The notes beneath the pieces were generated by a model that was given only the letters and a program-made list of their open reading frames with translations, searched no databases and was not told the DNA's origin. Position numbers and translations under genes: made by a program. From Antedon mediterranea (Eukaryota > Echinodermata > Crinoidea > Comatulida > Antedonidae), in the NCBI RefSeq assembly GCF_964355755.1, contig NC_092672.1:29322501-29386500 (forward strand): a stretch of DNA of 64,000 nucleotides. The letters are read 5' to 3'. The first letter of the stretch is position 1. Each line of letters begins with the position of its first letter. Below are positions 33,004 through 63,115 of the stretch, in pieces.

Positions 33004-34008
33004 CATTGTGTCTCATTTATACAAATGATCAAGCAACCTTGCTAATACAATGGGAAGACTGATATTAAATAATAAGATCTATGTCACGAACTCCTATTAC
33101 GTAAGTTTCCGAGCGGTTGAAAATACTTTAGGATCTCTCTTGTGACATAAAAGTATACACAACAAAATCCACGAAGTTGTAAAATAACTCAAAAACAAGG
33201 CTTCAATTTCAATCAACTTCAACTTTCAACAATCCAGTACTTTAAACAACAGCTTCATATTAACTCTTACAATCTAATCTCCAACCTTCTTCAAAATCAA
33301 AAATTATTCCCCCTCCTTACAATTGTCATTCTTCCCCTTATATAAAATATGTTCATAACCTTCTAGATCATTCCCTATACTTCTTACTCTATTGGATTAC
33401 AGTTTCTATTAATAGAAACTTCTGGAATGTTCCTGATTTGTTGTTATATTAATTATACATGGTTTCTTAAATCTAAACATACTATTTTTAGCATGTTCAT
33501 GTAGATTCTATGTTACTGTATATGTTAAGGAATAATAATGTATTCCAATCTATCATATGACTTTTATGACAGAATATGGTAGGGATATGCCCAAATATGG
33601 TAGTGATATGACACTAAGATGGGCTCATTTTTGGGATTCTTTTCGAAATGAATGCTGTAGATTTATGAATTGCTAATACAATAACAAATAAATTGTGTTA
33701 TATAAACATTTCTCGACCACTAATTGTATATATTTTGCTTACGTAGCAGTTAATATTCATTGTAATTATTTTGTTGTCATTGGCAACTTCTGCACACTGT
33801 CTGATGTAAATATTTGGTCACTCTCGTACATTCTTGATTTAAGTATCGAGTGGTTTATATTTCTCGCACACTTCGTTTGTTCTTGGATTTCTTAATCTTT
33901 ATCGCTTTTTAAAAATAATAAAATCGCTTGTGTTAGTTCGGTTTATCCTTACTGTAAAAACATAAACTTACACACGTTTTCAAAGACTTGGAAAAGCGAG
34001 GCCAAGTA
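33004..34008. other. Non-coding 5' flank of receptor gene
   Basis: A pyrimidine-rich strip (33190-33340, repeated caacttcaactttcaac type) and a MITE core fragment (33574-33614) are present. No TATA box or upstream exon could be assigned. Confidence 0.4.
33574..33614 (+). mobile_element. MITE core fragment, AGCTCTGTCTACAC family
   Basis: Only the tandem core motif atatggtaggatatgcccaa-like is present, twice. No terminal repeats are seen. Confidence 0.5.
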
Positions 34009-35109
34009 ATGGAAAATGAATCGTCGCATGATGCGTTGCTGAACATTTCACTACCAATTGAAGAAACGCAATCACCAAATACCGAACAGAAGTTTGACTT
34101 TTCTTTTGGAAATATATGTGTATGGCTTATGGTTTTCATTACAATTGTCGGTAACATTATAGTGATTGTTGCTTGGTTGGTAGAAAAGAAAATAAACTGT
34201 AAACCGACAAACATTCTGATCCTTAACCTATCCATTGCTGATCTTCTTACCGGGTGTGTGACTATGCCTCTGTACAACATCATCACTCACCATGGACGCT
34301 GGACGCTTGGCAACTTTGCTTGTAAAATTTGGACTGTTGCTGTATTTACATCTGGTCAACAGTCACTTTTTATGATTTTATTAATTTCTCTAGATCGATA
34401 TTGGATGCTTAAGAAAGGTTTGGAGTATAGGCGTTTTCAAACCCATCGTAGGGCTTTTGTGATGTCTGGTGTCTGTTGGATAAATTCCATTACATTTGCA
34501 ACGATTCCACCCTTTGTTCTACCGATAATAACCTCAGGCTCCACCAATATTAACTACTATACGTGTGAGATTGTTAGTTGCAGTAAGATTAATAGTGTTC
34601 TGTTTATTTTTCCACTGTTCATAATACCGTTAATACTTTTGATATACTTAAATACTTTGGTATATATCAATATCCGGAGACGATCAAACCGATTAAGACA
34701 TCAGAACAAACTAACTCAGACTGGGGTTACACAAAGAAGATCCCGCATCGATCATAGTACGACAGAAGTCGTGAATATGTCAATTGTACATAGGTCTACT
34801 ACAATCAGTACGTTGCACGGGCACAACTCACGACCACCACCACCACCACCACGTATCAATCGCAAGTCATTTGTCATGCTAGTAACGGTTGTGGGTGTAT
34901 TCTGCCTTTGTTGGTTGCCTGTGAATATTACCCTTGTGGTTCATAGGTCTTGGCCTAAGTGGAATTTTAAGTTTTTAAACTATCTAATCTGGTCAAATTC
35001 TATGGTGAACCCCTTGTTATACGTGGCTACTAATCTTCAATTCAGAAAATTCTTTGCAAAAGTACTATGTCGCTTCAAAAGAAACAGAGTAGCGGTGTTA
35101 ATTGATTGA
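34009..35109 (+). CDS. Orphan rhodopsin-family GPCR, amine-receptor-like
   Basis: A single exon of 366 residues encodes a seven-helix plasma-membrane receptor. Landmarks: glycosylation site NIS at 12-14; GN in TM1 (N49); LSIAD in TM2 (D78); C105 paired with a Cys in loop 2; DRY at 129-131; W in TM4; P in TM5; a loop 3 of about 100 residues with six prolines from residue 276; CWLP in TM6; NPLLY in TM7, followed by a basic helix 8. The TM6-TM7 pattern recalls muscarinic and histamine receptors. Counting from C105 (3.25) to R130 (3.50), position 3.32 is V112, not the Asp that holds amines, so the ligand is probably not a classical monoamine. I start at ATG 34009; the frame runs upstream to a TTG only. 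AATAAA follows at 35125-35130. Ligand and G protein unknown. Confidence 0.88.
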   Translation: MENESSHDALLNISLPIEETQSPNTEQKFDFSFGNICVWLMVFITIVGNIIVIVAWLVEKKINCKPTNILILNLSIADLLTGCVTMPLYNIITHHGRWTLGNFACKIWTVAVFTSGQQSLFMILLISLDRYWMLKKGLEYRRFQTHRRAFVMSGVCWINSITFATIPPFVLPIITSGSTNINYYTCEIVSCSKINSVLFIFPLFIIPLILLIYLNTLVYINIRRRSNRLRHQNKLTQTGVTQRRSRIDHSTTEVVNMSIVHRSTTISTLHGHNSRPPPPPPRINRKSFVMLVTVVGVFCLCWLPVNITLVVHRSWPKWNFKFLNYLIWSNSMVNPLLYVATNLQFRKFFAKVLCRFKRNRVAVLID

Positions 35110-42159: not shown

Positions 42160-42167
42160 TTCCCACG
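42160..42167. promoter_or_regulatory. RBPJ/Su(H) motif TTCCCACG
   Basis: Exact match to the high-affinity site YGTGGGAA on the minus strand, 2.5 kb beyond the 3' end of HES. Confidence 0.4.
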
Positions 42168-42570
42168 ATTCTATCAAAGGTTATATTTAACACTTCGACT
42201 TGGAATTCGCACTTTTCATTGTGTACTAAATATAACACAAAGTAGTTAGATGAGAAATAAAAGCATACACGTGGTCTTAAATGGAATGCGCATGTGACAC
42301 CGCCTTTATGAATGATGCTATCAAGAACAGTTGGAAATCAAAGCGATTAGGTATGGTATTCACTCTTTCCTGGTAAATGTAATCGATTATATTAAAAATT
42401 ATCAAGCATAGTTAAAGTACTTATAAATACCTAAAGACAATGAATTTAAGGTGCAAAGTATTTTCTTTTAAAAGGATTTTTATAATGAATTAGCTATGTA
42501 ACATTGTGTCGCAAAGTTAGGGCGCTAAATATGCATACAACGTTCGCATTCTGTTGTATATTTGGAACAC

Positions 42571-42578
42571 TGTGGGAA
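42571..42578. promoter_or_regulatory. RBPJ/Su(H) motif TGTGGGAA
   Basis: Exact consensus match on the + strand, about 400 bp from the 42160 site. Confidence 0.4.
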
Positions 42579-43071
42579 AGCTAGGTCTGAGTCAATGGTT
42601 TCGACTTAATCGCCTCTTTCTGTTCGTCTTAAATTTACATCAAACAGGCCTAATGAGTTGTTATTTATGCTGCTTGTTCTACAGAATTTTGCCGCGCTAA
42701 TCCATAAGGCTATTAATTATGTCTGTAAAGGCTATTTGTACAACGTAGGCCTACAGAATGAGTTACCTCGTTTGTTTTCTATCTTATTTTATCATTGATA
42801 CGTTTTATTATAGTAATTTCTAACCGTAGTTAGACCACTTCTAACCATTTCTATGATCAATATTAATCGCCGGTGGAACATCATGTTTAGCAACAATGAA
42901 TATTAGGCCTAAATTATACCAATGTCCAATATCATTTCAACGTTCAATATCATTTATGAATGATCTATATTACGGTAATTAATGATAATAATTTATTTAT
43001 TTATATTGCGCAAATTCCATTAAAATAATGTTGATGACGCACATTTTATATTGTATGAATTAAATAGTAAA

Positions 43072-43277
43072 CTAATATTGTACGAATGAAATAGTAAATA
43101 CTATTGTACGAATGAAATAGTAAGTACTATTGTACCGGGTATTGTACGAATGAAATAGTATATACTATTGTATGAATGAAATAGTAAAATACTATTGCAT
43201 GAATGAAATAGTAAAATACTATTGCATGAGTAAAATAGTAAAATACTATTATATGAATAAATAGTAAAATACTAAAA
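43072..43277 (+). repeat. 25-bp minisatellite
   Basis: About eight units of actattgtacgaatgaaatag + taaat, with drift to tgcatgaatgaaatag in the later units. Confidence 0.75.
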
Positions 43278-44639
43278 GTTAAAATGACCATTTGAAAGAT
43301 TAAAATTTATCTTAATTACAGTTAAATTAGGCCTATAGGTTAATTTTCTTGTATAGGCCTACGCTTAGGCCAGACAGAATGAAGTTCTCTAACAACGAAA
43401 CGAGGCTAACTTAACATGAGATAGTTTTAATACTTTCATATTCAGCTGCTTTTAAAATGTCTGTTATGGCAATTTAGGAGACAGTTTGAGATTCGGGAGC
43501 TGCGATTTCCGACTTCATTACATATGTCTAGGCCTACTTAAACAACTAAAATATAAAGTCATTTCTTGTGAACAAAACTGCTAAAGCACACAACAAATGG
43601 TTATTACGTTGAATGACGCTAAATATGTTTAAGATGTTAAAATAAGACAAGATAGGCCCAATTAATTGTAAAAAGTTTTTCTCGTTTAGCCATTTTTGAA
43701 AAATATAATACTGTAGTTTATTGCTAATTGTATGCAACGACTTGCAGTTGATGTGTAGATTGTGGTGTGGGCGTTCGACCTCAGTTCCACATCCTTACAT
43801 AATGTTAAAGAGATTGCTTTATTTTTACTTTTGATATGATGAATGAAAGCTGAGATAATTTGAGTTAAAAAAACGCCCTGACAGATTATAAACATATATA
43901 GCGCCCTCTTTTTCCTGTACATCTTAGCAGCACGCACACTTTTTGCTAACTTGTGTATATAAAACTATAAATCGTCCGTATGTTTATTATTAGTATCTAC
44001 AACATTGCCAGTTTTAACTATGACTTAAAGGCCCTGTTGAGACCCATGGCGTTAGACCGTTTTAGTTAATTATAGTTTGTTAAACTAAAATCAGTGATTG
44101 GCTGATGTTGGTTTTTAGTATATAGCATAAAAATATTAATACAGTATGTATCATCTTTAATGCCGTTGACGGTGGTGCAAATTTCATACAAGAATCAAAT
44201 ATTAATCATTATTTGCCAAGTACGTCTACTCTAATCATCTCCAGGCAACGTCCGGCAGCCGACACAAAGCAAATTTCTTCTCGGACCCAGTACTTAGTCT
44301 TAGATAAGACTGCTACCAAACATCGACAAACACACGGGGAACTATGTTATTGAGTCGTATGTCAGGGCGATGCCGTAAAAACAATTTTTATTATTAATGT
44401 TATTGTCATTATTGACATTTGTTAAAATTTCACTGTTGTAGAAGTTATTAACAAGTTTTGCTGCAAAGCAATAAAAGTCAAACAGATCGGAAACTTCTTC
44501 ATAACAGCGCCCTCTACAATGTACACAAAGTTTTGTAATTGGTTTTTGCATCTCTCCGTAGTTTCATCATCACAGTCATCAACACAATTTCAAACTTAAC
44601 TTCAAAAATATACATAAGACCAAATATTAAGATTTTTCA

Positions 44640-44936
44640 TAATTTATTACTTCACATTAACGCAGTGAGGGACGGTTTTGTAAAAATAGAAAGTTGACCA
44701 GCAACAAATTTTAAATACATTGTTAATTAAACATTTATAATTTTATACATTTTATATACATTGTTATGGTTAAAATATTAAAACATTTGTAATTAAGTAC
44801 AGTAAAATAAAAAATTAATTCACTTATGCTATTGTAAATTTGGCGCATAAGAGTCAATTAATGATAGTACTATGGAAGACATCTTTTGTTTTTAAGTAAC
44901 TCAAATAAGATTTATTTAAATGTTCGTTTTTGCTGT
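44640..44936 (-). other. HES 3'UTR
   Basis: AT-rich sequence follows the stop at 44937. AATAAA on the minus strand (44643-44648) is the likely poly(A) signal, giving a 3'UTR of about 300 nt. An earlier AATAAA near 44911 could give a shorter form that would exclude the miR-7 site. Confidence 0.6.
44873..44880 (-). promoter_or_regulatory. miR-7 8-mer seed match (GY-box) in HES 3'UTR
   Basis: The transcript reads GTCTTCCA about 57 nt after the stop. This is the full 8-mer complement of the miR-7 seed, and GTCTTCC is the GY-box known from Drosophila Notch-target bHLH genes. Confidence 0.55.
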
Positions 44937-46204
44937 CTACCACGGTCGCCATACTGGTTTGTTGCTAACAATTTGTTGTTTTACAAAAAGATGTTGCATT
45001 ACATTAACTGATGTTATTCCATGTGATGGTGATGCTGATGAACGAACTGGAGAAGATGGTGGAGTGATAAATACTGCTCCAACTGGATAACATGATACTT
45101 TTGGAGGAAGCACTGTACATTCTGTCTGCCTGTAAGCTGGTGAAACTGCGTGTACTGGACTTGGAATGTAAGCTGCCTGTGGTGGTGGAGATGGTGGAAG
45201 AGCTGGACTGCATTGTTGTACGTTTGAGGTAAGTTTGTTGCTTAAATGTCCCATAATTCTCATCTTGACATCTAGGTCAATTTCGTCACAAGCACCAAGA
45301 CATTTTGAGATCTCTCCAACACATTCGCTGAATCCAGCTCTGAATTGAGATCCATCGTTTGGTAGTTGTTGGCAGCCGCTTACTCTCTGCTGTTGAAGGT
45401 ATTTTACTGTCATCTCCAAGATATCAGCCTTTTCCATTTTTGGTTGGCCATTACCCTGAAAAAAGCAATTAAAAATAAATTTAGTCAAAGGAAAACTGAC
45501 AAAATTTGAAAACACACTAATACAGTAGCAATCACGCAGTCTTATTGAAGAGGTAAATACAATAGGCAAAACAATGAATTGTAGTTGTTCATAGTTTTCA
45601 ATAGGCATTGTCAAACCGTCACAAGCGATTTGGTTTCAATAACAAAGAGTATAAATACTGTATTATTCACGAGCATCATGAGTACGCTATGATCAACCAA
45701 TTCCCACGGTTTTAACAAATGAACGGATTAGTGACTGTAGATACTAACAAGGATGTACAAATGTACACACAATTATTTAAAGACTTCTTAATGTTGTTTG
45801 GTTTATTTTTTAAAGTACATAATAAATCTGTAACATACCTCTTTTTTAATTGCCGGGAACACAAGACCTTTAAGTTGCAATAGACTGTCATTAATTCGGG
45901 CACGTCGTTTTCGTTCCATAATATGTTTTGACGTCTATAAAAGATAAAAAAAATATATATATTTAGACATAATGTATTTTCATGGTATATTGAAATGATA
46001 TTTTAATATTTAATTGAAAATGTTAAAACATAAGTATTTTTAAGTATACAATAATGATAGCAAAATGAAAATCATTTACGTACATTAAAATATGAATAAT
46101 ATTCAAATAGCTAAAAGTAAAATAAATTATAATAAGATGCTTACCCTTCTGATCTCGCTCATCTTTCCTTGGTTGTTAGAAGTATTTGGTGCTACAGGAG
46201 CCAT
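44937..46204 (-). CDS. HES (hairy/Enhancer-of-split) bHLH-Orange repressor
   Basis: Three exons, 46204-46145, 45934-45839 and 45455-44937, join in phase 0 to give 224 residues. HES proteins bind N- and E-box DNA as dimers and recruit Groucho/TLE to repress genes downstream of Notch. Seen here: basic helix-loop-helix at about 21-70 (IMERKRRARIND, KMEKADILEMTVKYL), Orange domain at about 85-125 (FRAGFSECVGEI ... LDVKMRIMGHLS), a proline-rich linker, and the C-terminal Groucho-binding WRPW. Exon breaks after RR and after KKE match the usual HES structure, but the usual third intron in the Orange region is absent. The proline that marks the HES basic region (KPIME in relatives) is His here (KHIME). 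The subfamily is not assignable by eye. Confidence 0.93.
45701..45708. promoter_or_regulatory. RBPJ/Su(H) motif TTCCCACG in HES intron 2
   Basis: It reads CGTGGGAA in the gene's direction, an exact high-affinity site, 130 bases into the intron between the second bHLH exon and the last exon. Confidence 0.5.
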
Positions 46205-46305
46205 TTTAAAGTTCCAAAGTAAATGTAATAGGCTAAGTCTTTCTGAAAATGTAGTAATTGTTTGAAGGCAAATGCAAGAAGTGATTATATCCAAAGTTTT
46301 GCATC

Positions 46306-46313
46306 CTTTTATA
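46306..46313 (-). promoter_or_regulatory. TATA box of HES
   Basis: TATAAAAG on the minus strand lies 102 bases upstream of the ATG, predicting a start site near 46280 and a 5'UTR of about 75 nt. Confidence 0.65.
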
Positions 46314-46453
46314 GGCCTAAGACAGAACGTCACTCGCGTGAGTCCTAAGCCCTAAGCTAATGCGCAATCAACCGCGAAATTCTTCTACATCGGCCCAATA
46401 GGATCACGTCTCTTTTGTGACTATTAATCTGGGCGCGCGACACGAGCGATCTC

Positions 46454-46490
46454 ATTGGCTTACCTGAAATAGATCGCTGCTTCTTATTGG
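46454..46490 (-). promoter_or_regulatory. Two CCAAT boxes of HES promoter
   Basis: CCAAT on the minus strand at 46454-46458 and 46486-46490, about 145 and 180 bases upstream of the TATA box. A third, in the opposite direction, is at 46394-46398. CACGAG N-boxes, possible HES autorepression sites, are at 46441 and 46703, and a CACGTG E-box at 46618. Confidence 0.5.
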
Positions 46491-49400
46491 TTGAATGTGT
46501 ACGCGATGTCAATCAGAATCGTAATAAAGGATTTCCTATAACCCCTATACAGCATAATACGGACGCCGTGATAATGGTTTCGATTGTGTACGCTGAACCG
46601 GTGGTTTTTACTTAGGCACGTGGCTTCTATTGTTCAAAGCCTGGGAAAGCGTCCAAAAGAGCTGAGAGTCCATGGGAAAACTCCGCCTACTTGGGGCTTC
46701 GGCACGAGTATAAGCCGCTATCTAAACGGATTGTAAACAATCTACATACCAAAGTAACAATAGGCGGATAATGCTGGTTATTGCCTAAGAACTGTAATAA
46801 AAAAAATACAACTTGTTAAGCATTAAAATAACTATTAAAAATCTAAGATATTTTATTTATTATTACTTTTTAATATATTAACATAGAATTAATAGTAACT
46901 GAATAATATTTGTACAACATTCCAATCGAAATCGATATCTAATTAAATCGGTAATTGGTGTCCTAATTAAAACAATTTTCATTTAATTACACAGTAAAAT
47001 GCTAATTACCGTTTACTGTAATTATAAAATAAATGTTAGCAATTACAATGAATTTCCTCACATTTCCATATACTTTAAAATGATTTAGAAACTCCTTTTT
47101 ATCTAAGAAAATTGTATTAGTTTTTTTAAGGAAACAAATTAAGGAAAAAATACAGAACAGTATACAAATTAAAGGCCTATGGTCTCAGATAATTGAAGAA
47201 GTGTGAGTCGCTTTTATGTTGACTTAAACTAACCAGAACATTTTCTCAATATTTTAGGTCTATGGTGTATAAAAACTAAGTAGTTTATTTTAAGAACAAA
47301 GTCAAAATTTGGAAACTTTTTTGACTTTTCTTGTGATCAACGTCAACGATTTTTGTGTGCATTAATCTTTGTGTATTTTTTTTTTATGTTGTTTATATTA
47401 ATATATCTATATGTGCAATTTCCGTTTAAATTTATTGCTAAATACAGCAGGAACTTACTTAAATGATATTTTCTAACTTAATGGGTTTTGATGATTTAGT
47501 TTTGTTGTCATTATATTATCATTGATATTACTCCATACCTGTATTCACCAACTAAATATGAATTATAGCAGAGTAATTGTGTTAATGATCCAACACTTAA
47601 TTATTGTAAGCATACATTCTTAACAATGTCCACAACTTATATGTTGCTATAAACCATTCTCTTTTCCTAAAGGGTGATTAAATAAAAGGAATTTTAAATA
47701 TGAACGATATTAAGACACGCGACGCGAACTTTAATTGCCAGCTCAAGCAGTAGAGGCACCTGTTAACATTTTTAATTATATTTGTATTAATCTGTTATAA
47801 ATGCATATTTCAACTTTTTAGATTTTGATAGGCCTACATTTTCTTTTTTTTTGTGGAAGTTTTTAAAAGTAATACTTTACACTTAGTATCTTTCCATGTT
47901 GAAATCACTGTCTAAGAAACACTAAAGGTAACATTACCTACATATTCTTTCAAGAATAAAATAAGTAAACTAAGACTATACTTTTTCTTTTGAGAAATTC
48001 ATATAGAAATTGGTATAGGGTATTAGTGACATCCTTGTTCGGACCAGAGAGACCAAAGATTAAGAATAAGATGGGTGTTTTTTTTGTCCTAAATGTGTCC
48101 ATTAGTAGTGGGTTTACTGTATGATAAATTGCATTATATACATAATTCATAAGACGTAATTTAAGGGAAATAAATAAATCATTTTTAAAAAGTTATTTCT
48201 ACAAAGAAAATATCTTACCTTTCAATTAGTATCCTAATCACTTCCTTAGGTATTTTTCTATTATGGGAATAAATAAACAGGTATTATACAAAAATCTATT
48301 CAGAATTCATTCCATTGATGTCAAAGCGTTGGGAGTTGGCCTGAGTCATTAGGACACAAAAGTCCTGGTAGCCTACTTGGTCATTTTAAAGCCCCTGGGA
48401 TTTCTAGGGTAGTAGGCCTAAGTAAGAAAGCACTTATTTTACCACGCTGTATATAGGCCTACTTGTCAGGATAATGGGCCTTCTGCGTGGGTGCTACTTT
48501 ATCATTAACGAAGTAATAATACTTTCATAGGCTTAGATTTGATTTCAACCACACTCGATTCACCAGGGACAAAAAGTAGTGAGCCCTCTATCGGCAGCCA
48601 ATCGTTTTTGCACACGAGACAGCGTGGACAATTACCCGGAAGCAACTTTGTTTTGAAAAGTAAATCTTAGGTTTTTGCAAACTGGCCAATTGGAACTTTT
48701 GGTTTTATTTACTAATGAATAATTCATGAAAACCTTTGACAAGGCATCTACGAACCACGTGATATTGTTTTTTAATCGACGAACCCATTATATTTGTGTG
48801 AAACAAGGGTGAATTACACCGATGTTTTTTAAACAATTTTAGGCTATTCGAATGTTAAAATTTCGTCTAATTTGTTGAGGCTGTAATAAAACAACGCAAT
48901 TTTTTGAGAAGGTGGGTTTTATAGTTTCTGTATATTTGATTTTTCAATAGTAGTTAATAAAAAAATCTCGTTGGGGTTATTTTTTATTTTTTTTTAATGG
49001 CTGCTTAAACATGTGCCTTCTTGGGTATTTCACTATTGAAAATGGAACACATGGTTGTAGCTAAAATCATTTTTTACGCCATAAGATAAAAAATGTGGTT
49101 TTGTAAATTAATAAGGGCAACATATAATATATAGGAAAGCTGTTTTTAATCATAAAACTCTACAAAGCTTCTTTTTTTTATTTATAAATCAATATAGTCT
49201 AGGCCTAGTAGTACAGTAGGAGAGCCAGGCTTTAGCCTATAGTGGGGTAGTGCGTGCATTATTGGCGCGTGTTCATTGTCGGGCGCGCGTTGTTTATAGG
49301 CCTAAGAAAATAAGTAAAATATACAAATATAATTGAATAATGATTATTATTAATTGAATGTTGTTTTTATTTTTACAGACCACAGAGGATTGTTCTACAT

Positions 49401-51928
49401 ACTTCAATACAAATAGCATTAAATCAACAACAATGTCTTATGAGTCATATTAATTGCTCTGGCATATAATGTGAAAAAGCACTATTAATACTGTAATAAT
49501 GGATATCTATAGATGTACTGCCAAAAAGACATTTTATTTTTTAAAAACTTTAACTAATATCCTAATTTGCTTATTTAAAGGTTCAAGTGGCGCTTGGTTG
49601 TTGTGCAGTAGTTTAATAAAGTTTAAATGTACATTTCAAATCGGCAAATAAATAATGGTAATAGGCCTACAGTACTGCAGTAAAGAAAATCTTTTCGAAG
49701 ATTAGGCTTAGTACAAAAGATGTTAGCTAAGTTGATGTAGAAAACTTGTTGTCTGATTTTTAAGGTAAAATTTGTGATAATATTAAAAGTTAAAATGTTA
49801 ATTGGTGTGTATTTGTATTTCATTTATTGCTCCATTATTATAATAAAAAGCAGGGAACCATGAAATTTCATTTTAGCTCCGATAAAAAGTAAACATTTTC
49901 AGCATATACTGTACTTAAATCAATCATATGTTAGTGACAGGTGACATTAACAGATTTATTATGAGATTACTAGTAAGCCTACTAGTAGGTTTAGCTCTAT
50001 TCATAAAAATAATGACATTATATACTGTACATTAATTAATTAGCCTAGCTAGGCCTAACTAATTTTACTGATTTTTCAGTATTTTACCAAGTCAACCGTT
50101 CAGGCATGCAGACAGTCCTCACTTCACACTAATCTTCATAATTTTAAGAAAAATGAAAGTTCAGCACTTTATTTTAAAATTTATAAGCCCATATTATAAG
50201 ATTCTGCATCATCCACTTAACAAGAACTAAAATCGAGAGCCCAGTGATAGAGCGCATCTTCCGACGTTCTCGTCGCCTAAGGAAACGAGTATTCCAGCCC
50301 TGCCGCGTCTTCCTAGGCCTACGCGCACCGCACTTTCGCTCAAAATACACTATCTTAAACTCCTTATAGAATTTGTTTGAAAAATAACCCCAAGCTTATA
50401 TTTGGAAATCTTTGAAAATGCATATAAGACTATATTATAGCGTTTTCAGAATTTCATTTAAAAATTGCAAATTAATGTTAGCTATTTTAACAGATTAGTT
50501 AGTTTTCACTTTTTTGTTTTCGCCGTATGACTCGCTTTGTTTACGTATACATTTGGCTTAGACGTTTATCTTAGAATTCGAATCAATTAATCCATAATCA
50601 ACTAAAATTGCTATTGTTGTGGTTTTTGTTTAATATAAATGTTCTTAATAAACAGAAATAAATCAAACAACAATATAATTTAATATAAATCGGTTAAAAG
50701 GGAAATTTATATAAAACACGGAAGTCAGAACTCGCGTCGCTCGAAATGCTCGGGAACTTTCTATTTATAGCCAATCGAAAAAGGCTCCGGCTAACTTAAA
50801 CAATGAAAACGGCTCTCGGAACACTTAATGTCCCATTTTCGCTGTTTGACGTGGATGTGCAACCTCTCTTTCTGTTCGTATTTTAATCGTAACATTTGGC
50901 TAGTGTATAACTTTTAACAGGCCTGTCATATCACCAAAGCTAGGCATTTTAAAAGTTGTTTTTTTTTAAAACTAATTTTGTTGTTTTTCTGACTTTTTCT
51001 TTCTAACTATTATATAATCTAAACTATATCTCAATATCAATCTTTTTATATTTATTTTAAATGATTACAGAACAAAATAAATAAATAAATAAAAAGCTTG
51101 TTTTTTATTTGTTTACAAGCAAGTAATGCTGAGACTTAGATAAAGTAACATAAACCTAAACTCGACTGGTTTTTGCCAGTTCTGAATATTTTTTAGAACA
51201 AAATAAAGTTAAAGATAAGATAGTAATGTATCTAAAAAGCCTTAACTTGCTTTTATTTTGTTTTGAGATTTTAGCCCGCTGATTTTTATAAAACATGTTC
51301 TTTGTAATATTCTAAAAATATATGAGTAATAAAAATAAACAAAAATTTTTATAAAAGAATGAAAAGTCTAGACTATAATACAAATAATATTGTTGGAAGG
51401 AACACACGTGTTCAATCTTTCTTTTAAGTTGACTTGGTGATGATTCAATGTTTGTATTCGGTCGGCGCGGAACTGATTTTCTTGTATTTTTACCCTTCAG
51501 TTGATTCCTCGCTTGATCATACACATTACTGTTAAATCGAGTGTTAGTAAATTGGCTATTTATCAGAAGCATTCTTGTGAGTCAGCAACACGTTCACATA
51601 TTGGAAAATTGAACAACCACTTCTGAAACATCAATAAATATTTTGTAAATTTGTTTTGTTCTAAATGACTAAGCCAGATCAAATAAAGGACAAAAGTCTT
51701 CAATCAAAGTATTTTAGCTTTATAGAGGCTTATTACAAGATGTCTTAATATTCAAGGAATTTAAATTGTTAAATTTTATATTACTTAATGTTGTTTCATT
51801 GCTCATTTCGTTGTTTTTAAAACCAGTAATGTATTTAAGTTAACCATGGCATTATAGATGAACACATTCGAGGTGATTTATGTTATAAAAATAAAGTTTG
51901 TATTAATCTCTATGTTAAATTAAAGAAT

Positions 51929-52452
51929 ACACTGTCTAGAAACACTGAAGGCACTACACCACCTACACATTCAAGACACTGTCTAGAAACACTTAAGGCA
52001 CTACACCACCTACACATTCAAGACACTGTCTAGAAACACTGAAGGCACTACACCACCTACACATTCAAGACACTGTCTAGAAACACTGAAGGCACTACAC
52101 CACCTACACATTCAAGACACTGTCTAGAAACACTGAAGGCACTACACCACCTACACATTCAAGACACTGTCTAGAAACACTGAAGGCACTACACCACCTA
52201 CACATTCAAGACACTGTCTAGAAACACTGAAGTCACTACACCACCTACACATTCAAGACACTGTCTAGAAACACTGAAGGCACTACACCACCTACACATT
52301 CAAGACACTGTCTAGAAACACTGAAGGCACTACACCACCTACACATTCAAGACACTGTCTAGAAACACTGAAGGCACTACACCACCTACACATTCAAGAC
52401 ACTGTCTAGAAACACTGAAGTCACTACACCACCTACACATTCAAGACACTGT
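51929..52452 (+). repeat. 47-bp minisatellite, about 11 units
   Basis: Units start cactgtctagaaacactgaa and end ctacacattcaaga, with an exact 47-bp period. Almost no variation is seen: one unit has cttaagg and two have gaagtc, spaced four units apart, which suggests recent higher-order expansion. Confidence 0.95.
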
Positions 52453-52640
52453 CGAAAGATCTTTTAATATTGATTTAGAATATAAGTATACTTTGTTAGG
52501 AAAGTTCACAAAAGTACTAATTTCTAAACGTTACAAAGAAATATAATCATTCATTATTAATTAAAATTATTATTTATTATTGTACTTGGGCCAGTGGCCT
52601 ACATACTATTAAATAAATAAATGGATGAATGAATGTATTA

Positions 52641-52641
<1 letters not shown>

Positions 52642-52703
<62 letters not shown>
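52642..52703. repeat. (AT)n microsatellite
   Basis: About 30 uninterrupted AT repeats. The length is uncertain in any assembly. Confidence 0.95.
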
Positions 52704-52706
<3 letters not shown>

Positions 52707-53152
52707 GAATATTATACAAGTATGAATATAGTTTTAACAACATTTCTCTTTATATTTTGTTTTGACGATTTGGCCTGAGTTTCTTGCTTTGTCTGATATC
52801 TGTTTTGTTATCTTGATATTCAGTCCCTGTTTTTCCACATAATTGTTTTCCCTGTAATTTTTCCTTCGAATGTATTATTAGCAATTTCCTGATTTAATTA
52901 AAAACAAGAATATTGTTTGTAGGCCTGGCTAGTAAATAGTAAAACTCCAGAAGACGATTGCAACTTAACAACAGAAATGACATTCTCAATTATACAGTAC
53001 TCCTTTAAGGGACACTTAGGAATGTCGCCTAAATATGAGTTTCTTCTGAATGAGACTGTAAATCCCATAAACAAGGCAGTCCACAATGATGGGTTATATT
53101 GTATGTCCTTTTTTTTTAAACCATATTTTAATGAGGGTGATCCATCCAGCTA

Positions 53153-53325
53153 TTGCTGATCATTAGGGACCCTCAGAGGTTCACAAGACAAACATTCATA
53201 TACACAAGATGCTCTACATAAACAAAGTGGAGTAATTTTGTCCTTAGAAAATATCCTGACATGTGACGGGACCCTTGGAGTGGTAGCCAAGCATCATAAC
53301 CACCAAGCCACAACTCCACTTTTTA
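53153..53325 (-). mobile_element. tRNA-derived SINE, family 2, B-box deleted
   Basis: On the minus strand it starts gtggagttgtggcttggtgg (A-box TGGCTTGGTGG) and continues through ccaagggtcccgtcacatgt to gagcatcttgtgtatatg and gtcttgtgaacctctgaggg. The B-box stretch present at 14154-14360 is missing, so it could not be transcribed by pol III in the usual way. Confidence 0.7.
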
Positions 53326-53498
53326 ATGCACGGTGGTGTACCAGAAACACACAAAAAATAAAATTATATATTTTTTGGTCATTTCTCACGAAACGATGAC
53401 GGTGCTTCTGTGCAGCCTGATTGTTTACTAATTATTGAAGTTGATTAATTTGCATAAACTTCACTACCACCAAGAACTCACTACTGTATCCGTTTTAC

Positions 53499-53506
53499 CG
53501 TGGGAA
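53499..53506. promoter_or_regulatory. RBPJ/Su(H) motif CGTGGGAA
   Basis: Exact high-affinity consensus, + strand, about 7.2 kb upstream of the HES start. Confidence 0.4.
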
Positions 53507-53655
53507 AGGAAGCCTCTAAAGTCTTCTTTAAGCTTTTGGCATTCTTGTTACGTCACGCCATTCACTTAATTGATAGTAACGGCATAGCAATATCATTACG
53601 CACATTATGATTTTCTGATACTGTACTACTAGTAGTATAGGCCTGGAAATTATAA

Positions 53656-53876
53656 TTACAGTAGATCCTCTATAGAGGGGACACATTTAGAGCCCAAACA
53701 AGTTTCCTCTTATTAGTGGTGTCCCCTTAATAGGGATTTGAAGTAGCGCCGGCTAGATAGACCACCCTCGTCAAATATTGTTGAAATGAATAAATTAAAA
53801 AAATAATATATATCATTCGGTTCACAAGAATGTGTCCAATTTATAGGGGTGTCCCAAAGGAGGTGTTCTACTTTTC
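53656..53876 (+). mobile_element. MITE, CAGTAGAACCTC family
   Basis: Left end tacagtagatcctctataga, right end ccaaaggaggtgttctact; both carry the gggg(a/t)cac motif. A second, rearranged partial copy lies at 53928-54076. Confidence 0.7.
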
Positions 53877-54883
53877 TATAAATAAAGAATTAGTATGTAT
53901 TCGCTAATACATTCCTCCTATACATGGTATACACCTATTCAAGGGATACACTATTATTAAGGATCACTTTCCCATGATGAATAAGGTTAGATATAATGTG
54001 TTAACATTACATCCAACCTCTATTCAAGAGACACTACTATTAGGTCCTGAAGGTATCCCATAATAGGGGGTGCTAATGTAATACTAACGTGCATTAAAGC
54101 TAATAAATTGAATTTATTATTATATAGACCTAATGTTATTAGATATTGATTTTTCATGATCAACAGGAATTTTGTATTTAAGGCATTTTATATTATGAAA
54201 TGATATTTCATGAACTAAGGAAAATATTTGAAATAATACTATTGAGCGAATTTATTTAAAAACAAATTTATTTTTAGTGCAGTTTTTGATCCACTGCTTT
54301 TAAATATGGATTTTAATATATTATCTTATACAATTTGTTTGTGGATTTGTCTCTTATAAAATATCTGATTTTAATACACGCGTTCTTTTCTTGGCGCCCA
54401 AACTGTAATTTTGCATCTTCGCGCCCAAAGACTCTGAGAACAAGAGTAAGTAGATTTGATTATCAATCCTACTGATTAACTTAAGTAGCCGTCAATCTGA
54501 GTTTAAGAGGGAAGTGTGTATGAGACATCAAAACAAGATGCAAATTGAGATTTGTTTAATTGTGTTAGCTCCTATTTATACGCGCAGCAAATTAGAGTCT
54601 TCTATCCAAGTCTGGGAATTCAAATGCCTGTGAATGTATGTGTGAAGGAATGTAAATTTATCCAATCCACAAGTCTTATTCATACTTGTAAAGTACATGA
54701 TATTGAAAGCACTAATCCCCCTTGTAGCAAATAGAAAGGTCCTTTGGCTATTCTTTCATATTTATGCCGACGAAACAGGGCTTTTATTCTAGCCACGAAC
54801 CTCAATAGGAGAACTTGAAAGCTCGGGTGCGCTTAACAATAACCTCCGCTCGGTGTTATTATTCTACGGGATGTAGACACTCG

Positions 54884-55026
54884 TTCCCACGGTAGAGAAT
54901 AAAGAACCTGCACACCCAGCCATTGTTCGTGCTTATTACTAATTGTAAACAACCACAATACACCGGGGCTTTTATACGGCTTACAACCTGTACGTTGAAT
55001 TTGTATACTCGATCAGAGTGTGGGAA
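54884..55026. promoter_or_regulatory. RBPJ/Su(H) pair in CpG-richer island
   Basis: TTCCCACG at 54884-54891 and TGTGGGAA at 55019-55026 face opposite ways, 128 bases apart. The surrounding 54720-55320 is richer in GC and CpG than its flanks and free of recognised repeats. Confidence 0.45.
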
Positions 55027-55799
55027 AGTCCAACGAAAAGCCACCAAGACCAAAGGCGTTGACACACGATAAGAGTATGACAATAGGGCCGACTACATGC
55101 ATGAGGTCTTCCGGATAGATCGAAGGACGATGAACAATACAAATAAGCCCTAACTACTTGACTTGTCGTACCCTCTATATGAGAAGATAGAAATATAAGG
55201 AGGTCGAATATAGAAATAAAATATTCGGGACCTTCTAAGGAGAGAGCGCTACAATGGTCGTCGGCAGCAAATATTGACATTTTAAATAAACTTAACAGAA
55301 ACAAAATTGGTAACATTTAAAAGAGATTCATAAAAAATATAAGTTAATCATAGTTCGTCGGAAGGTTGGATTTAAATTGATGGTGGTAGCCCTAATTAAA
55401 TTCGTTGAAACTAGAAATGGCATCATCATAGTTTCCTCCATGGTATCATTAATAAAAGTCAGCTTCAGTAAAATTCCGTAAAATTGATCTACTAATACTT
55501 TTCCACTATTTGACTACAAAAATGTTAACTGAAAAATTCTCCACATGTTAATTTTATAGTAAATACAACACATGGTGGATTGAATTAACATACCGGTATG
55601 GAATATGAATCACTATTATTTATGTAATTATGCAGTTTAACAAGTTATAACGTTAGGTCTAATTTCAAAAACTGTGAATTTATCTCACTAAGTATCTGTT
55701 TTTAATCTGTCTTCTAATCCAATAATGGTCTTTAAAATGTCTTATGTATTATATGTATTGTGATTGCCATTATTGAATTAATAAATGTTCTAATCTTAA

Positions 55800-55916
55800 C
55801 TAGTTTGAAAAAATAGTGTGAAGTGCCCGAAAGGTAGTGATATTACATCATCATGTCCATCATGGGTACATTACATTTTGTTACATACAGTTTGAAAGTG
55901 TAGACAAACCTTCAGA
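55800..55916 (+). mobile_element. MITE, AGCTCTGTCTACAC family, decayed
   Basis: Core gaaaggtagtgatattacatc and right end agtttgaaagtgtagacaaa are recognisable. The left end is reduced to tagtttgaaaa. Confidence 0.55.
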
Positions 55917-57130
55917 ATTCCAGATAATAAACACATGATTTTCTAGTTTATGTTCTTTAAGCAATCAAGGACCATCCTAGGTCTAATTTAATTAGAGGTC
56001 CTTTTTTGTAAACAACAATTAATTACCATTAAGCATTTGGAGTAATGATATTCTAATATAAATTTACGTTTTGATTTTAATATTTTCAAATAGGCCTAGC
56101 CAATCCGCCATGGTTTATCGCCTTGTGGAAAAAGCTTCTTTAAAAAAAAAGTTTTAAAGTAAGTCCTAATGTCAACAACCCCTATTGAACGAACCTATTC
56201 TTCTTACAAAAAGTTCAACAACTTTGTTACTTTTATCGATACAGTGTACCCATACTACCCCTTGGGAGGAAATCAATGGCCAGAGGAATTGCGCTATTGT
56301 ACCCAGGAGAGCATTTTGCAACGCGCCCTAACCTATCTTAACTTTAAAGTCCTGTAACATCTAAGGCAATAAGGCCATAGTTGAAATATATCTAACAATA
56401 TATTTAACTAAACACTAAATAGCACACATATTGAAATATTTTATAATGTTGTGTTGTTCCATACTGTATAATACTATTTTTTTATATTTTAAAGCTTAAT
56501 TATTATTAACTTAGGTAGGTATATACAAGAAAAATCGTTAGTTTGTCATAATGTTCGATTCCAAAACATTAGGTATTAGGTATTTTAATTACAAACGAAA
56601 AAGAATCCTCAAGAAGTGTTTCATTCTCTCAACACAAACATTTCACCATTTAATTTTTCACCAGTACCACCCTAAAGCTTTCGTGAACTTAGGATTCGTG
56701 ACACCCTTAAAACTTTAACTGTATAAGTCTACACCTGTGTCATCTCTCTATGTGCTAATTAGACATATTGGAATATTTTGTTTGAAAAAAAATAGTGTAC
56801 AATGTATTTGCAAATGTTTTGTTGTTGTGTGTGTTTATATAACAATACGCATTCATTAATGAGGTTTAAAAACCCGAAACAGTGGTATTTCAGACATTGA
56901 TTAAAACTGTTGAATATCCATTAACCAGTAATTACCGTACTTCATATGTTATAATAGGCTTTTGTATTTCTTTAAGAGGATGAGAAAGAAACTTTCTTTA
57001 ACAAAAATAGCATACTGATTAATATTAAATGATATATTATAAATATTAATTGAATTGCTAAATTATTTATAGGTCATCATTTACAATTGATATAACTTTG
57101 CACAATTCATCAAAAGCGTCACCAATACTA

Positions 57131-57419
57131 CTTAATGACATTATTGTGCCCCTGAAATAAATAATTTATTATTTTGCTTTTTTTAATATTCCATTTTGAT
57201 GTTTCATAATAGTTAGTAAAAAATAGTTACCAAAAGAAACTAATTGAAAGCAAACAAATATTCAAATTGGCTGCCAGCCAATGGTTTTTGAAATTAACTG
57301 TTTGTTTTGTTTTTTTATAAGTGAAACATTTTTTTTTATTTCTGCGGAAGTAATTAACTTTATTATAACTACAAAATGGCCTATTCAAAATCTTCATTTT
57401 GGGGGACAATACATCTTTA
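57131..57419 (+). mobile_element. MITE, ATTGTCCCC family, copy 5
   Basis: Left end near ATTATTGTGCCCCTGAAATA; right end GGGGGACAATACATCTTTAAA. The interior has ttaactttattataactac and atggcctattcaaaatc, as in the other copies. Confidence 0.6.
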
Positions 57420-58769
57420 AAACTGTTTTGTAGATCTATGGTTGTCTATCTTTACATTAGCAATACCGTACTTTAAATTGAAATAAAGTTATTTGAAAAA
57501 CAAATGAAAAAGGGTTCAGAAAGATTGCAAGATGTTTTGGATGATGAAGAATTTTCCCAGGCTTGTTGGATAAAAGAAATACCTTAATACGTCATAACTT
57601 CCTTCTCAAGCGCAGGCGTGAACGTTCTTGCCACAACAAAATTACTTTGCAATAAGGATATGCGGGCATTACGTGGCACGGAATTTTAGACGGCCCTGCC
57701 CAATTAAGACAATACTATACAAAATCGTATCTTGTACCATAGAGATATTATACTGTAATATCTCTATGCTTGTACTGACTTGTCATCTAATACGTGCCAA
57801 AATAAGTTCTGTTTAAATTTATAGAAAATATAAGAAAAACACCAAGTAGGACTAGGCGTACTGAAAGTTATGATAGATGCGGGCATTTTGTAAAGCAAAA
57901 ATTAATTACAACGGATTATCGAGCATTAATTAAATTTGTCTCTTCTAAAATTCATATTTGAAGCCATTTTTTGTAAGAGCAAATTTTCTAAGCTGGAACA
58001 CTCAGGAGGCGGGAATCTTTAAAACTTGTAGGCCTAATAGTCTGCACTTTTTCCACCCACCCTAATTAACCAAGAAGACGATTTTTTTAAACCCATGGTA
58101 CAATGTTTCCAAACTTCTTCTTGGTTTAGGGGCATGAACATTTTTTTCCCTTGATGATTGTACCAATTTGATCAAATTAAATGTTAAAACAAAGCACAAA
58201 AGAGAAACTTTAGGACTTAGTGTTAGAAAGTTATTTTATAAAGCAGGGTTCATTATGAATACAAACCAAGACACAGGAACGGCAACATCATTTTGGTAAC
58301 AATTGTCAAACCGTTGCGTTGTGTATCGTTCAATTTTACCAGGTCTCAATTATGCATGGCCTAGACCTCGTCGTATAATCGAACCACAATGATACCTCAT
58401 TAATATAATCTATACCAATCCCAAACTCATCTATCTGCGAATTGGGCCCAAGACAAACGTCTTGAACAATTTCTAAAATACCAATTATTTAAACTGTCTA
58501 CAATTTGAAATATTTTTACGATTAAAGATTATTTTGGTAAATGATAATACCAAAACGGAAATCATAAAGTTCCGTTAAAAACTGTAGCATTGTTACGTCA
58601 AATTTTATTGCGCTTTTAAATAATCATTTTAATACTTTGGATTTAATTTAACAAAGTATCAATAAAGTAGGAATTACCGAAAGCGATTATAAATTGTAAA
58701 TGTTTCAAATTCCATTTTAAGCGTTCTTTTATTCTTTTAGTAACGGGCCATTTCATATTTTCACTTGCA

Positions 58770-59140
58770 GAGCAGGTGCCGGTATGAAATTAAAACTTTT
58801 TGAGCCTTTCGGAATGCTGGGAGCAGGTAAGAACCGTGGCCTTTTCCGCTTGACAGGTACTACAAAAGGTATCAGGGCTTAACCCGTGCAATAACCTGCT
58901 AATCGATACTTAGATCACGTGATCAATTCTAACCTGTCGTCGACCAAACAAAGAGCTTAAACGAACAAACACTCCGATGCGCGCTCTTTTTGAATTGGCA
59001 AAGATTTCGAAACTATAGCATTTTCTATAGATGCAAACCATCTGTCTCGTTTTAACGGTTCTCACTGTATAAACACTGGAGGTTTTAGATAACAAAAGAA
59101 TTGGACTTCTTAACAGGTTGTTTTCCACCTGCACCTGCAA
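58770..59140. promoter_or_regulatory. E-box cluster, candidate enhancer
   Basis: CAGGTG at 58773, CACGTG at 58916 and two abutting CACCTG at 59128-59139, plus AACCTG and ACAGGT half-matches. These are Snail/bHLH-type sites in a repeat-free, GC-richer block. Function is inferred only. Confidence 0.3.
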
Positions 59141-60393
59141 TATCATCAATAGAAACAAAATCGAAACTATCTCTTTTAAAAAATGCAGTTCAGGCCTACT
59201 TTCTGACCTATCAAAGAATAAACAAAACTTGAAAAATTAGCTTGAGAGAGGCCGAGGCTTCATTTACCATACAACAAAGTGAAATATAATAGGCCTAGGA
59301 ATTTTTAAAAGGCCTAAAATAATAAGTTTTTGTATACATCCAAAAAACAACGTGAAATTAAGTTGGTTGTTATAAATACCACTATTGCAAAATGTTTGCT
59401 GGTCTCCTCACTGAACATGCACGGTAATCTTGCTCGTTTCAAAAACCTAAATTCAAATTATGTTTAGAACTCAACAGCAAGTAGAAAGATTGCAGAAATT
59501 GTGCAACACTTTTTGATGTACATTAATTTATACCATAGTACATTTAGAAATGTATATATATTATTATGTAGAAACTAATTTGTTCCTGAGTTATTGAGAA
59601 TTGTGAACTCTGTATTATTTTTTCCGAAATAAAAGATGAAATAAAATAAAGATTGCCACCAACTCTAGATGTGACTATTAGCGTCATGATATTTTTATGA
59701 ACTAGTAAAATATTGCTTGCTTGACAGCCCGAATGTGTGTTTACCTGGCTAACTTTGATTACCCTTTGAGTGTTTTTTGTATTTTTATATGCGATATTTT
59801 ATGTTTTACTTTAATTTTGTTTATGTAATGAATTGTGTTAGTTCAAATCAAGTAAAGGATACCAATTTGTGGATTAATTGTTTTAAACTCAGATTGTTGT
59901 GTAGGCCTATTTAACACAATAGATACCGCGTGCCTGTTTGAATTTTCAATAGGATCAGTTTCTTTTTCTCATTAGACATAAAACCTACTCGTTTAAAGTT
60001 AAAATTTGTTTGGCTTTTGTTTTGCAAACTGTTGTGGCTTTAGCTTTTTCAATTATTTTTTTTAATTTTGCCTTTTTTCCAATTGTTTTCAGGTCGTTAT
60101 TGTTTAATTTATTCAATTTCAATTTTATTTCTGCTGTGTTAATGAATAAATATTTATTGGATTTTTGTTTACAATTCTTTTATTTTCTAATTTTTCGTGT
60201 TCATTATCAAAACTTATATTCTGGTAATGACATGTAATCAACACACTGCTCAATAATTATCGTATGACATCATCATTCCAATCTATTGTTATCGAATTCG
60301 ATAATTATACGTACGCGGTACTGTCGAATCATGAAATACAGCTACCCTGATACGGATAATCATGACTATTTCTAACAACAAACGTAGAAAAGG

Positions 60394-60544
60394 TTCCCAC
60401 ACTCTTAACAATGCTTCGTGTGGCCAACACGCGTTCAAATCTGATCCGGATTAATTGATTGAACTAGCTCCGGGCTATTGTTTGCCTAACGCCTTATTTG
60501 AAGCAACGGCAAACAAACACAATGGTGTGGACTTGGTTCCCACA
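60394..60544. promoter_or_regulatory. RBPJ/Su(H) pair
   Basis: TTCCCACA at 60394-60401 and again at 60537-60544, same orientation, 135 bases apart, in a GC-richer block (60280-60620) without recognised repeats. Confidence 0.45.
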
Positions 60545-60619
60545 GTATTGAGCATCTCGACCGACTTCGGTATGTTGGTCATGTACATATCTATAGGGGG
60601 CGCTGCATAAGCAAGGGGT

Positions 60620-62500
60620 CTCTCCCTACCAAAAGAACAAATATTTAAACAAATAAACTACTAAAATTAACAATATTTTTTTAGATTTACATAAGTATGT
60701 TTGGGCTATGACAAGTCGTAATATTTTTTTAGACAATTTTGTTTATAGGCCTATTTTAATCTATCATAAATAGGCCTAGATTTCAATGAATAGGTTAACT
60801 ATTGAGATATCACAATACGGTAACATATTTTGATTTTAACCAATGTTTTAACTAACTCTAAAAATCGAAATCTAATGAACACGTTCTATTCCTGCAACTG
60901 TGTTCTCGTATGATCTCTATCGATATAACTAGAACATCACTTATAAATGACAAGCTTAGAAAATATGGAAATGAAAAATTTAGGCCTACTAAACAACACA
61001 GGTTTACCACCAGGGACATACACAGCCCACGAGAGTAACGAATGGCAGGGCGAGACCTATACAATATTTATATACTAACATGTTAATATTGTAATGTTAT
61101 TATTTTAATTAATGTCTAGTTGTATTTACAGTAGACACAATAAAATGTGTAAATACAGACATTAATTTGTCACCTGGTCCAAGTGTCTAAGGGAAAATGG
61201 ATGGATAAGCGTATATCGCTTATTTCTGTTATTTGACCTATTTAGCCAGACTTTTTCAAGAAACAAATGCGTGATGCGTTTGGTTACAGGCCTGTAAAAT
61301 TGAATAGTGTTACAACTTTATTTAATTTAGCCTCAGTCTCGAAACCAACTTGCACTCACCAGCAGGCGAATATAAATGCATTAATTTCATGTAAGAGTGT
61401 GCCAGGCGCATGCAGTATTCGCGAAAGTGACCACAAACAACACAGAAAAAAATCAAGTAAACACGCTCGCCTGACTTGTCGGTAGCGGGCGCGTGTCAAT
61501 TAATACATTCTGATTTGTTACTCGCTTGGCGATTAAGTATAATAGGTCTTAATAATCGTAACCAGTAGCAGAGTGCGCTGGCTATAATTTTCCCATGACC
61601 CGACACGCGCCGTTCTTGGCTCATCTGCCGGTTCGCCTACAAGCTAAATTGCTACATCCGTAAGTGGGAGGAAAGGCGGTGTGTGCGGTTTGTTGGCGAC
61701 ATGTGCCACTTTCAATTAGTTTACTTTTTTGATATTATATATAATTGTTTTTTGTTCGTAAATTAGGTATATTGATACTGTGCATGCGCTGGAAGAATAC
61801 AAGTTGTATATGGTCAATCTGCCCAATGCTTTTTGTTGAATGATGGCTACAGGTCACTTTAGTTAATTGATATACAATACTATTATTTATCATTATATGA
61901 TTATATAACAATTATAAGTATTGTATTTTTATATTATGCCTAAAGGCAGAAAATATAACGTACTGTCTCTTAAAAAATAAAAGATTTATTTTATTTATCC
62001 AAAGACAATTTACTTTGGTAATGATAATGCAGTGTTTAATCTCAATGGAGATACAATTAAAATAAGCAGAAAGCTAAAACAAAACTCTTAAAGACACAAA
62101 GTTAAACAACCAGAAAAAGTTTCAAGCTTTCGGAAAGCAGTATTTCATCATGAATATGCGTGTGTAGATGAAAAAGCATCTGTAATCTTGTCCTTTCACG
62201 TGTTTAATCTTGTCCCTTGCCAACTTCAAAACAAATAAAAATAGAAAAAAAACCCACAAAATATTACTTATAAAAACAATGGAAAAAATATATTTAAAAA
62301 TATAAAAATGAAATTCTGAAACATACAAAGTATACAGTTTACGCGCACAATCCTGTATACTTTTTTTTTATCAACATTAAACGCTGCGCGCACATCAAAA
62401 ACGTCCAGTGTAGCTTGATAAATGTTAGATCGAACTTATCTATCTAGTTTCTATTTATCACGCGTCATGTGATCTTCACGACTGTAAACATAATAAAACA
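60620..62500. other. Gene-poor DNA upstream of HES, third part
   Basis: AT-rich, except for a CpG-richer block at 61430-61720 in which no gene or known motif pair was recognised. Confidence 0.4.
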
Positions 62501-62573
62501 AATAATTTGATTTTGTGCTTGTTGATTTCATGAATCTTGTTGATTCAACAACGAAAGTAACAGATTCGGTCAA

Positions 62574-62647
62574 TTCCCACGGCAGCCCGTGGCTCGTGGT
62601 CGATCATCTGCGCTCTCGTAACAATAGAAGCTCGTGGCTTTCCCACG
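62574..62647. promoter_or_regulatory. RBPJ/Su(H) pair in CpG-rich island
   Basis: TTCCCACG at 62574-62581 and 62640-62647, same orientation, 58 bases apart. The island 62500-62880 also has CACGTG at 62832. A 116-codon frame crosses it but shows no protein-like pattern. Confidence 0.45.
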
Positions 62648-62879
62648 TCCACGCGAATTACAATGTAATTAAATACGCCACAGTCGGTATCGCTTGCGAC
62701 GGTCTGAATATACCGCACGCTTCGCGTGTAAACAAAGGGATGTTTAGGCCTAACTCATGTGTTTGTTGTCCACGGAACACCACGCAAGGACGCTATTTTG
62801 AAGGGGACGTGTTAGTTGTTTCGATCGTGTGTCACGTGGCTGGCAACTGCTATAGCAACTGTTGAACGTGTGGTACCAA

Positions 62880-63115
62880 CATAATGTGCCTACATAATAA
62901 CTTAACGCCATAGTGGTAATTTAAATCAACAAACACGTTGGTGTACTTTTTCTCTGTAATATAAAATCAAAAGCTAAAACGCCTAGACAATAAATATACT
63001 TTTCAAGAATCTGCAAGTTAATTGTAAACGGTTTTGGACCGTTACAGACAAACAAACAATAATAATAATGTTTTTCAATATTGATTATTGTAGTAAATGG
63101 CTTTAATGGTTTTAA
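62880..63115. other. Short AT-rich intergenic stretch
   Basis: Nothing was recognised. Confidence 0.4.

Follow-up and report, generated by a model that had tools for sequence, protein, structure and literature searches.

The HES locus and its RBPJ-type sites

We have analyzed a 64,000-nucleotide stretch of contig NC_092672.1 of Antedon mediterranea (the window; C1, C3 and the like denote contigs of the same 354.4 Mb genome) in which words of the form YGTGGGAA, the type of site bound by RBPJ (CSL), gather around a gene of the HES family. The gene is predicted to encode 224 amino acids comprising a basic helix-loop-helix (bHLH) domain, an Orange domain and a C-terminal WRPW (Pfam values of 5.7e-13 for HLH and 1.1e-11 for Hairy_orange), and a comparison of the protein with PDB sequences gave two matches at E up to 0.01, both to HES-1 and the best at 3.4e-16. 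With the three marks of the family all present in the predicted product the gene is, by sequence, a bHLH-Orange-WRPW HES gene, as an earlier note on this DNA had said of the gene between the sites; comparison with other HES sequences suggests that it is HES2-like. A TATAAA box at 46313-46308 would place the start of HES transcription near 46283, and the distances of sites listed below are counted from that inferred position. The borders of the three islands are the outer sites plus 150 bp and nothing more.

46204-46145, 45934-45839 and 45455-44937 (span 44937-46204), minus strand: HES coding exons, GT/AG borders
46308-46313, minus strand: TATAAA box, ~105 bp upstream of the HES start codon
42160-42167, minus strand: RBPJ/Su(H)-type site CGTGGGAA, 3' of HES, ~+4.1 kb
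42571-42578, plus strand: RBPJ/Su(H)-type site TGTGGGAA, 3' of HES, ~+3.7 kb
45701-45708, minus strand: RBPJ/Su(H)-type site CGTGGGAA, HES intron 2, ~+0.6 kb
53499-53506, plus strand: RBPJ/Su(H)-type site CGTGGGAA, ~7.2 kb upstream of HES, with CGTGAGAA nearby at 53383
54734-55176: candidate enhancer island, GC 0.445, sites at 54884 (minus strand) and 55019 (plus strand), ~-8.6/-8.7 kb
60244-60694: candidate enhancer island, GC 0.386, sites at 60394 and 60537 (both minus strand), ~-14.1/-14.3 kb
62424-62797: candidate enhancer island, GC 0.433, sites at 62574 and 62640 (both minus strand), ~-16.3/-16.4 kb
46671-46678, plus strand: weaker RBPJ-like word CATGGGAA, in the proximal promoter, the sole YRTGDGAA within 1 kb upstream of HES

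Eleven exact copies of YGTGGGAA are present in the window, ten of them in 42001-64000 (all within 42160-62647) and one in 1-42000; the earlier note had reported ten at 42.1-62.7 kb and one, at 28381, in the first 42 kb, and each of its 11 coordinates is exact. The copy at 28381 was said to lie inside a splice acceptor, and the surrounding sequence (TTTTCCCACAG) does look like one. The CpG form of the word, CGTGGGAA, accounts for 6 of the 10 cluster sites. No copy is found in the 30 kb directly beyond the window end and 1-42000 has a single one, which leaves HES at the centre of the cluster. Three pairs of sites are at most 150 bp apart (135, 143 and 66 bp), where 0.59 such pairs would be expected for 10 random sites (P 0.016), and the mean GC content of the 308 bp around the 10 sites is 0.393 versus 0.321 across 42-64 kb, a value that none of 5000 random sets equals, in keeping with the description of six upstream sites as three close pairs in GC-richer DNA. 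The observation of a site cluster is confirmed, and is somewhat stronger than had been put before.

Excess over background

When the window was shuffled 100 times with its dinucleotides kept, the count of YGTGGGAA never reached 11 (mean 2.80, largest 8). Genome-wide the word occurs 14,781 times in 354.4 Mb, corresponding to 0.85 expected copies in 20,488 bp, near the ~0.7 per 20 kb of the earlier note, and 10 are seen (Poisson P 2.6e-8). The excess is driven by the CGTGGGAA form, with 5,182 copies in the genome, 0.30 expected in 20,488 bp and 6 seen (P 7.8e-7). Both P values are nominal, since the word and the borders were chosen after looking and the genome counts include repeats and arrays. 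This comparison with shuffled and genome-wide backgrounds had been set beforehand as a possible refutation of the enrichment; the excess was upheld at 10 versus 0.85, and a local excess of the exact word over real genomic background is what characterizes an RBPJ/CSL site cluster.

The excess is specific to the exact word. Only 1 of the 840 letter permutations of the motif, the motif itself counted among them, is present at least 10 times in the last 22 kb, and the 22 patterns that differ from it by one letter occur 17 times in the masked test region and 188 times in 192 kb elsewhere (comparison DNA that includes the second HES and the HEY loci described below), compared with 10 and 10 for the exact word (Fisher P 1e-5). 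Among the 11,631 8-mers of the masked 42-64 kb CGTGGGAA ranks 8th, 6th, 5th and 4th under backgrounds of order 1, 2, 3 and 4, respectively, preceded at orders 1-3 exclusively by parts of TAGGCCTA and at order 4 by TAGGCCTA and two others. TAGGCCTA is the most over-represented 8-mer of this masked region (24 places) and is frequent in the first 42 kb too. The first 100 copies of CGTGGGAA listed genome-wide all fall in the initial 5.63 Mb of C1, 52 of them in five stretches that were judged to be arrays by their regular spacing; the remaining 48 amount to 0.17 per 20,488 bp with a maximum of 2 (13 with arrays included), and the HES cluster holds 6.

Other bHLH-Orange genes

Searching the genome for the Orange domain yielded five loci, namely the HES gene of the window, a second HES gene on C3 (ending in WRPW), a HEY gene on C1 (YRPW), a gene on C6 and a bHLH-Orange gene on C7. 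We take the bHLH of the C3 gene to be close to the HES1/4 type and the C6 gene to be HELT-like. Protein searches for further HES genes returned only the window and C3 genes, with the proviso that diverged members may be missed. Exons for the DNA-binding domain of RBPJ are found on C7 (two LAG1-DNAbind matches above cut-off), so the binding protein is encoded in the genome.

In the 30 kb around each of the other four genes YGTGGGAA occurs 4 times at the second HES, 4 times at HEY, once at the C6 gene and not at all at the C7 gene, the second HES and HEY counts having been tested after the window result. Taken together at the genome rate these two loci hold 8 sites in 60 kb versus 2.5 expected (P 0.004). 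As controls we pooled 232 kb, comprising window positions 1-42000, the next 30 kb, the C6 and C7 genes (assigned to the controls after their counts and type were seen), 20 kb at each of three PAX places and four arbitrary 10-kb pieces. The pool contains 9 sites, 3 of which belong to a single repeat present in copies at the C10 PAX locus and were kept in the count, and relative to it the binomial P is 0.013 for the second HES and HEY together and 1e-6 for the last 22 kb of the window with its 10 sites. As two further probable Notch targets, the second HES and HEY thus carry more sites than the pooled controls, if weakly so. The C10 PAX locus, with 3 copies of CGTGGGAA in 20 kb, was considered as a second cluster and rejected, the three being copies of one repeat; a repeat of ~1.2-1.4 kb units carrying CGTGGGAA lies at ~14.8-20 kb of the piece analyzed there.

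Co-motifs and paired-site patterns

Thirty-four motif words were scanned around the 10 sites, and five of them were retried at the second HES and HEY, where there are 8 sites. CACGMG (HES-type) occurs 7 times versus 1.4 expected (P 0.001) in the first set and 4 times versus 1.4 (P 0.08) in the second; for TRTTTAC (FOX) the numbers are 5 versus 1.8 (P 0.014) and 4 versus 1.4 (P 0.046). These two signals are suggestive only. AACAAT (SOX), first spotted by eye, is present 10 times around the 10 sites versus 3.5 expected (P 0.0005), and TAATTA failed at the second HES and HEY (P 0.54).

Searched across the genome, the paired-site pattern gives 175 forward and 184 reverse matches and is useless as a list of targets, as 98 of the 100 matches listed look by eye like one palindromic element. 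A dispersed palindrome of ~31 bp starting GTGGGAACC (for example C1:439726-439756) contains two head-to-head RBPJ-like cores at the spacing set in the paired-site pattern and, from its sequence, could attract or confuse RBPJ.

Interpretation

A non-repeat cluster of RBPJ-type words lies at the HES gene, and in our judgment it probably constitutes the Notch-input part of the regulatory DNA of HES, with putative enhancers responsive to Notch/RBPJ dispersed over the upstream DNA (at 7-16 kb), intron 2 and the 3' side of the gene. Such wiring is expected for a HES-family gene. Binding, enhancer activity, target gene and direction of response are what we infer from the sequence. The earlier note had said that the islands look like distal Notch enhancers; the non-repeat cluster of RBPJ words at HES and its enrichment have stood, and the enhancer part is the most probable reading.

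According to PMC8325870, RBPJ represses at rest and activates once joined by the Notch intracellular domain. At the present locus RBPJ would occupy the scattered YGTGGGAA words one by one or as loose pairs in the upstream islands, in intron 2 and 3' of HES and would repress as long as there is no signal; upon cleavage of Notch its intracellular domain and Mastermind would join RBPJ, the islands would activate HES at a distance and the HES protein would then repress differentiation genes. It is conceivable, if rather doubtful, that the locus is among the strongest unique RBPJ-site clusters of the genome and that nearly all of its Notch input comes through several distal islands in which single sites are loosely spaced and HES-type repressor words (CACGMG) are also present, making it a distributed enhancer array with self-repression and no paired site at the promoter.

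A number of results weigh against a Notch-input role for the cluster. TGTGGGAA alone is mildly enriched (ranks 88, 76, 172 and 543 at orders 1-4) and YGTGAGAA is not enriched, with 1 copy in 22 kb versus 7 in 40 kb of arbitrary DNA. Taken singly, the second HES and HEY each give P 0.04, and when the C6 and C7 genes are moved to the targets the contrast weakens to 9 sites in 120 kb versus 8 in 172 kb. Close pairs arise elsewhere, as two sites separated by 193 bp also occur in one 10-kb piece out of the four arbitrary ones. AACAAT was dropped as a general rule, since the second HES and HEY have 4 copies versus 2.6 expected (P 0.28). The 19 YRTGDGAA words of 42-64 kb include no head-to-head pair with a gap of 15-17 bp, pairs with one off-consensus half not being part of the search, and the two exact sites nearest to each other share a strand and are separated by 66 bp; the islands, if Notch-responsive, would therefore respond through single complexes. 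The most distal pair, finally, is about equidistant from HES and from a THAP-domain exon beyond the window.

The cluster might also have arisen by chance and been selected because many words and genes were looked over, its sites being functionless. The word and borders were indeed picked after reading, TGTGGGAA taken by itself is unremarkable, a close pair is found in an arbitrary 10-kb piece too and many of the 14,781 genomic copies must be inert. However, of the 840 letter permutations, the motif among them, only 1 reaches such a count, CGTGGGAA comes next after the TAGGCCTA-type words when all words are ranked (orders 1-3), and the first 5.63 Mb of C1, with the presumed arrays set aside (48 sites), hold at most 2 copies of CGTGGGAA per 20,488 bp versus 6 here, so we regard chance as an unlikely origin.

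A different user of the sites has also to be weighed. GTGGGAA overlaps the sites of other factors (Ikaros-type, NF-kB-type), and the words could serve one of these, or RBPJ could act there purely as a repressor without Notch. Yet Y precedes all 10 copies of GTGGGAA in 42-64 kb but just one of the 11 in 1-42000, and A follows all 10 copies of YGTGGGA, both ends of the RBPJ consensus being kept, and we consider either alternative quite improbable.

Two exons beyond the window identify neighbouring genes that the islands might serve as RBPJ enhancers in place of HES:

window coordinate ~78.7 kb (L002:4654-4965): exon with a THAP domain (Pfam 2.4e-9), placed between HES and the MIB-like gene
window coordinate ~86 kb (L003:2103-2447), ~22 kb past the window end and ~40 kb from HES: MIB/HERC2-domain exon, Pfam 5.9e-28

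The distances of these exons from the pair at 62.6 kb are comparable to that of HES, but the sites lie on both sides of HES and end before the neighbours are reached (none in the next 30 kb), which makes a THAP-domain or Mind-bomb-like target very improbable. The MIB/HERC2 exon looks like that of a Mind-bomb 2, another Notch-pathway gene. Human HES5 and MIB2 are both on chromosome 1. HES2 and HES4 are located there as well (PMC3396596), and because the four human genes share this chromosome the HES-MIB linkage may be old.

That the sites were brought in by a repeat or tandem array is barely credible, even though the genome has array-like runs of CGTGGGAA (for example at C1 3.08-3.17 Mb), all 3 sites of the C10 PAX locus lie in one repeat and site 60537 has 12 bases in common with the palindromic element starting GTGGGAACC. 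The contexts of the ten sites all differ and both strands are represented. Genome searches with the stretches that carry the upstream sites listed further copies only for ~53651-54069 within 53300-55300 (40 of 248 candidates scored) and for ~61968-62151 within 60200-62900 (40 of 113 scored), neither with an exact site inside, which agrees, for the sites themselves, with the earlier description of the islands as repeat-free. Local comparison gave repeat-like matches also at ~53199-53328, away from the sites, and matches of the islands to the other loci compared are short or of repeat type only, the strongest at ~53199-53328 and ~53650-53806. Judged by such sequence comparisons repeats do not explain the cluster, a result of genome searches for the 7 upstream sites and of the differing contexts for the three at 42160, 42571 and 45701.

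Among other features noted, the array-like run at C1:3079565-3172246 has CGTGGGAA about every 1.5 kb, and a 47-bp tandem repeat occupies 51832-52547, between HES and the upstream islands. Farther away in the window, one open frame at 33958-35109 covers the entire Pfam 7tm_1 profile (1.1e-47), as for a Rhodopsin-type G-protein-coupled receptor, and 18232-19930 is a long repetitive stretch with open frames on both strands (GC skew of -0.51 in 18001-20000).

Comparison with known Notch targets

A literature search found no published study of this HES locus, a negative that carries little weight. A plain word count can flag candidate Notch enhancers where functional data for a genome are lacking and, at the HES gene, yields a few short testable fragments. 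If our reading is true, it adds a case of a HES gene with distal, dispersed Notch input instead of a paired site at the promoter; general knowledge of Notch targets would stay unchanged.

In mouse and human cell lines, as described in PMC11109962, TGGGAA/TGRGAA marks the Notch-responsive RBPJ sites, and these overlap enhancer clusters more than unresponsive sites do. The sequence-paired RBPJ sites of Hes1 and Hes5 are arranged head-to-head with a gap of 16 bp, 15-17 bp being tolerated (PMC7685452); RBPJ sites near a HES gene are common to both systems, whereas there is no 15-17 bp pair here and the closest exact pair (66 bp) is on the same strand.

Closer parallels are found among HEY genes. 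In Drosophila Hey, three YGTGRGAA words upstream and four in intron 2 form groups that carry Notch-dependent activity, and PMC11353301 describes a bHLH-Orange gene with upstream and intron-2 site groups found by the same kind of word search; unlike the present sites, which extend up to 16 kb and are known from sequence only, those lie within ~2.2 kb of the gene, 6 of 7 are conserved in eight species and they have been studied with reporters and deletions. The endothelial enhancer of mouse Hey1 at -18 kb (PMC7762959) loses its reporter activity when its two Rbpj sites are mutated. That gene is a HEY and not a HES, and its enhancer is proven in mice, whereas here about three such islands are predicted; the two loci are alike in combining a bHLH-Orange gene with distal elements at a similar distance, and the mouse enhancer has two Rbpj sites, one of which contains CGTGGGAA.

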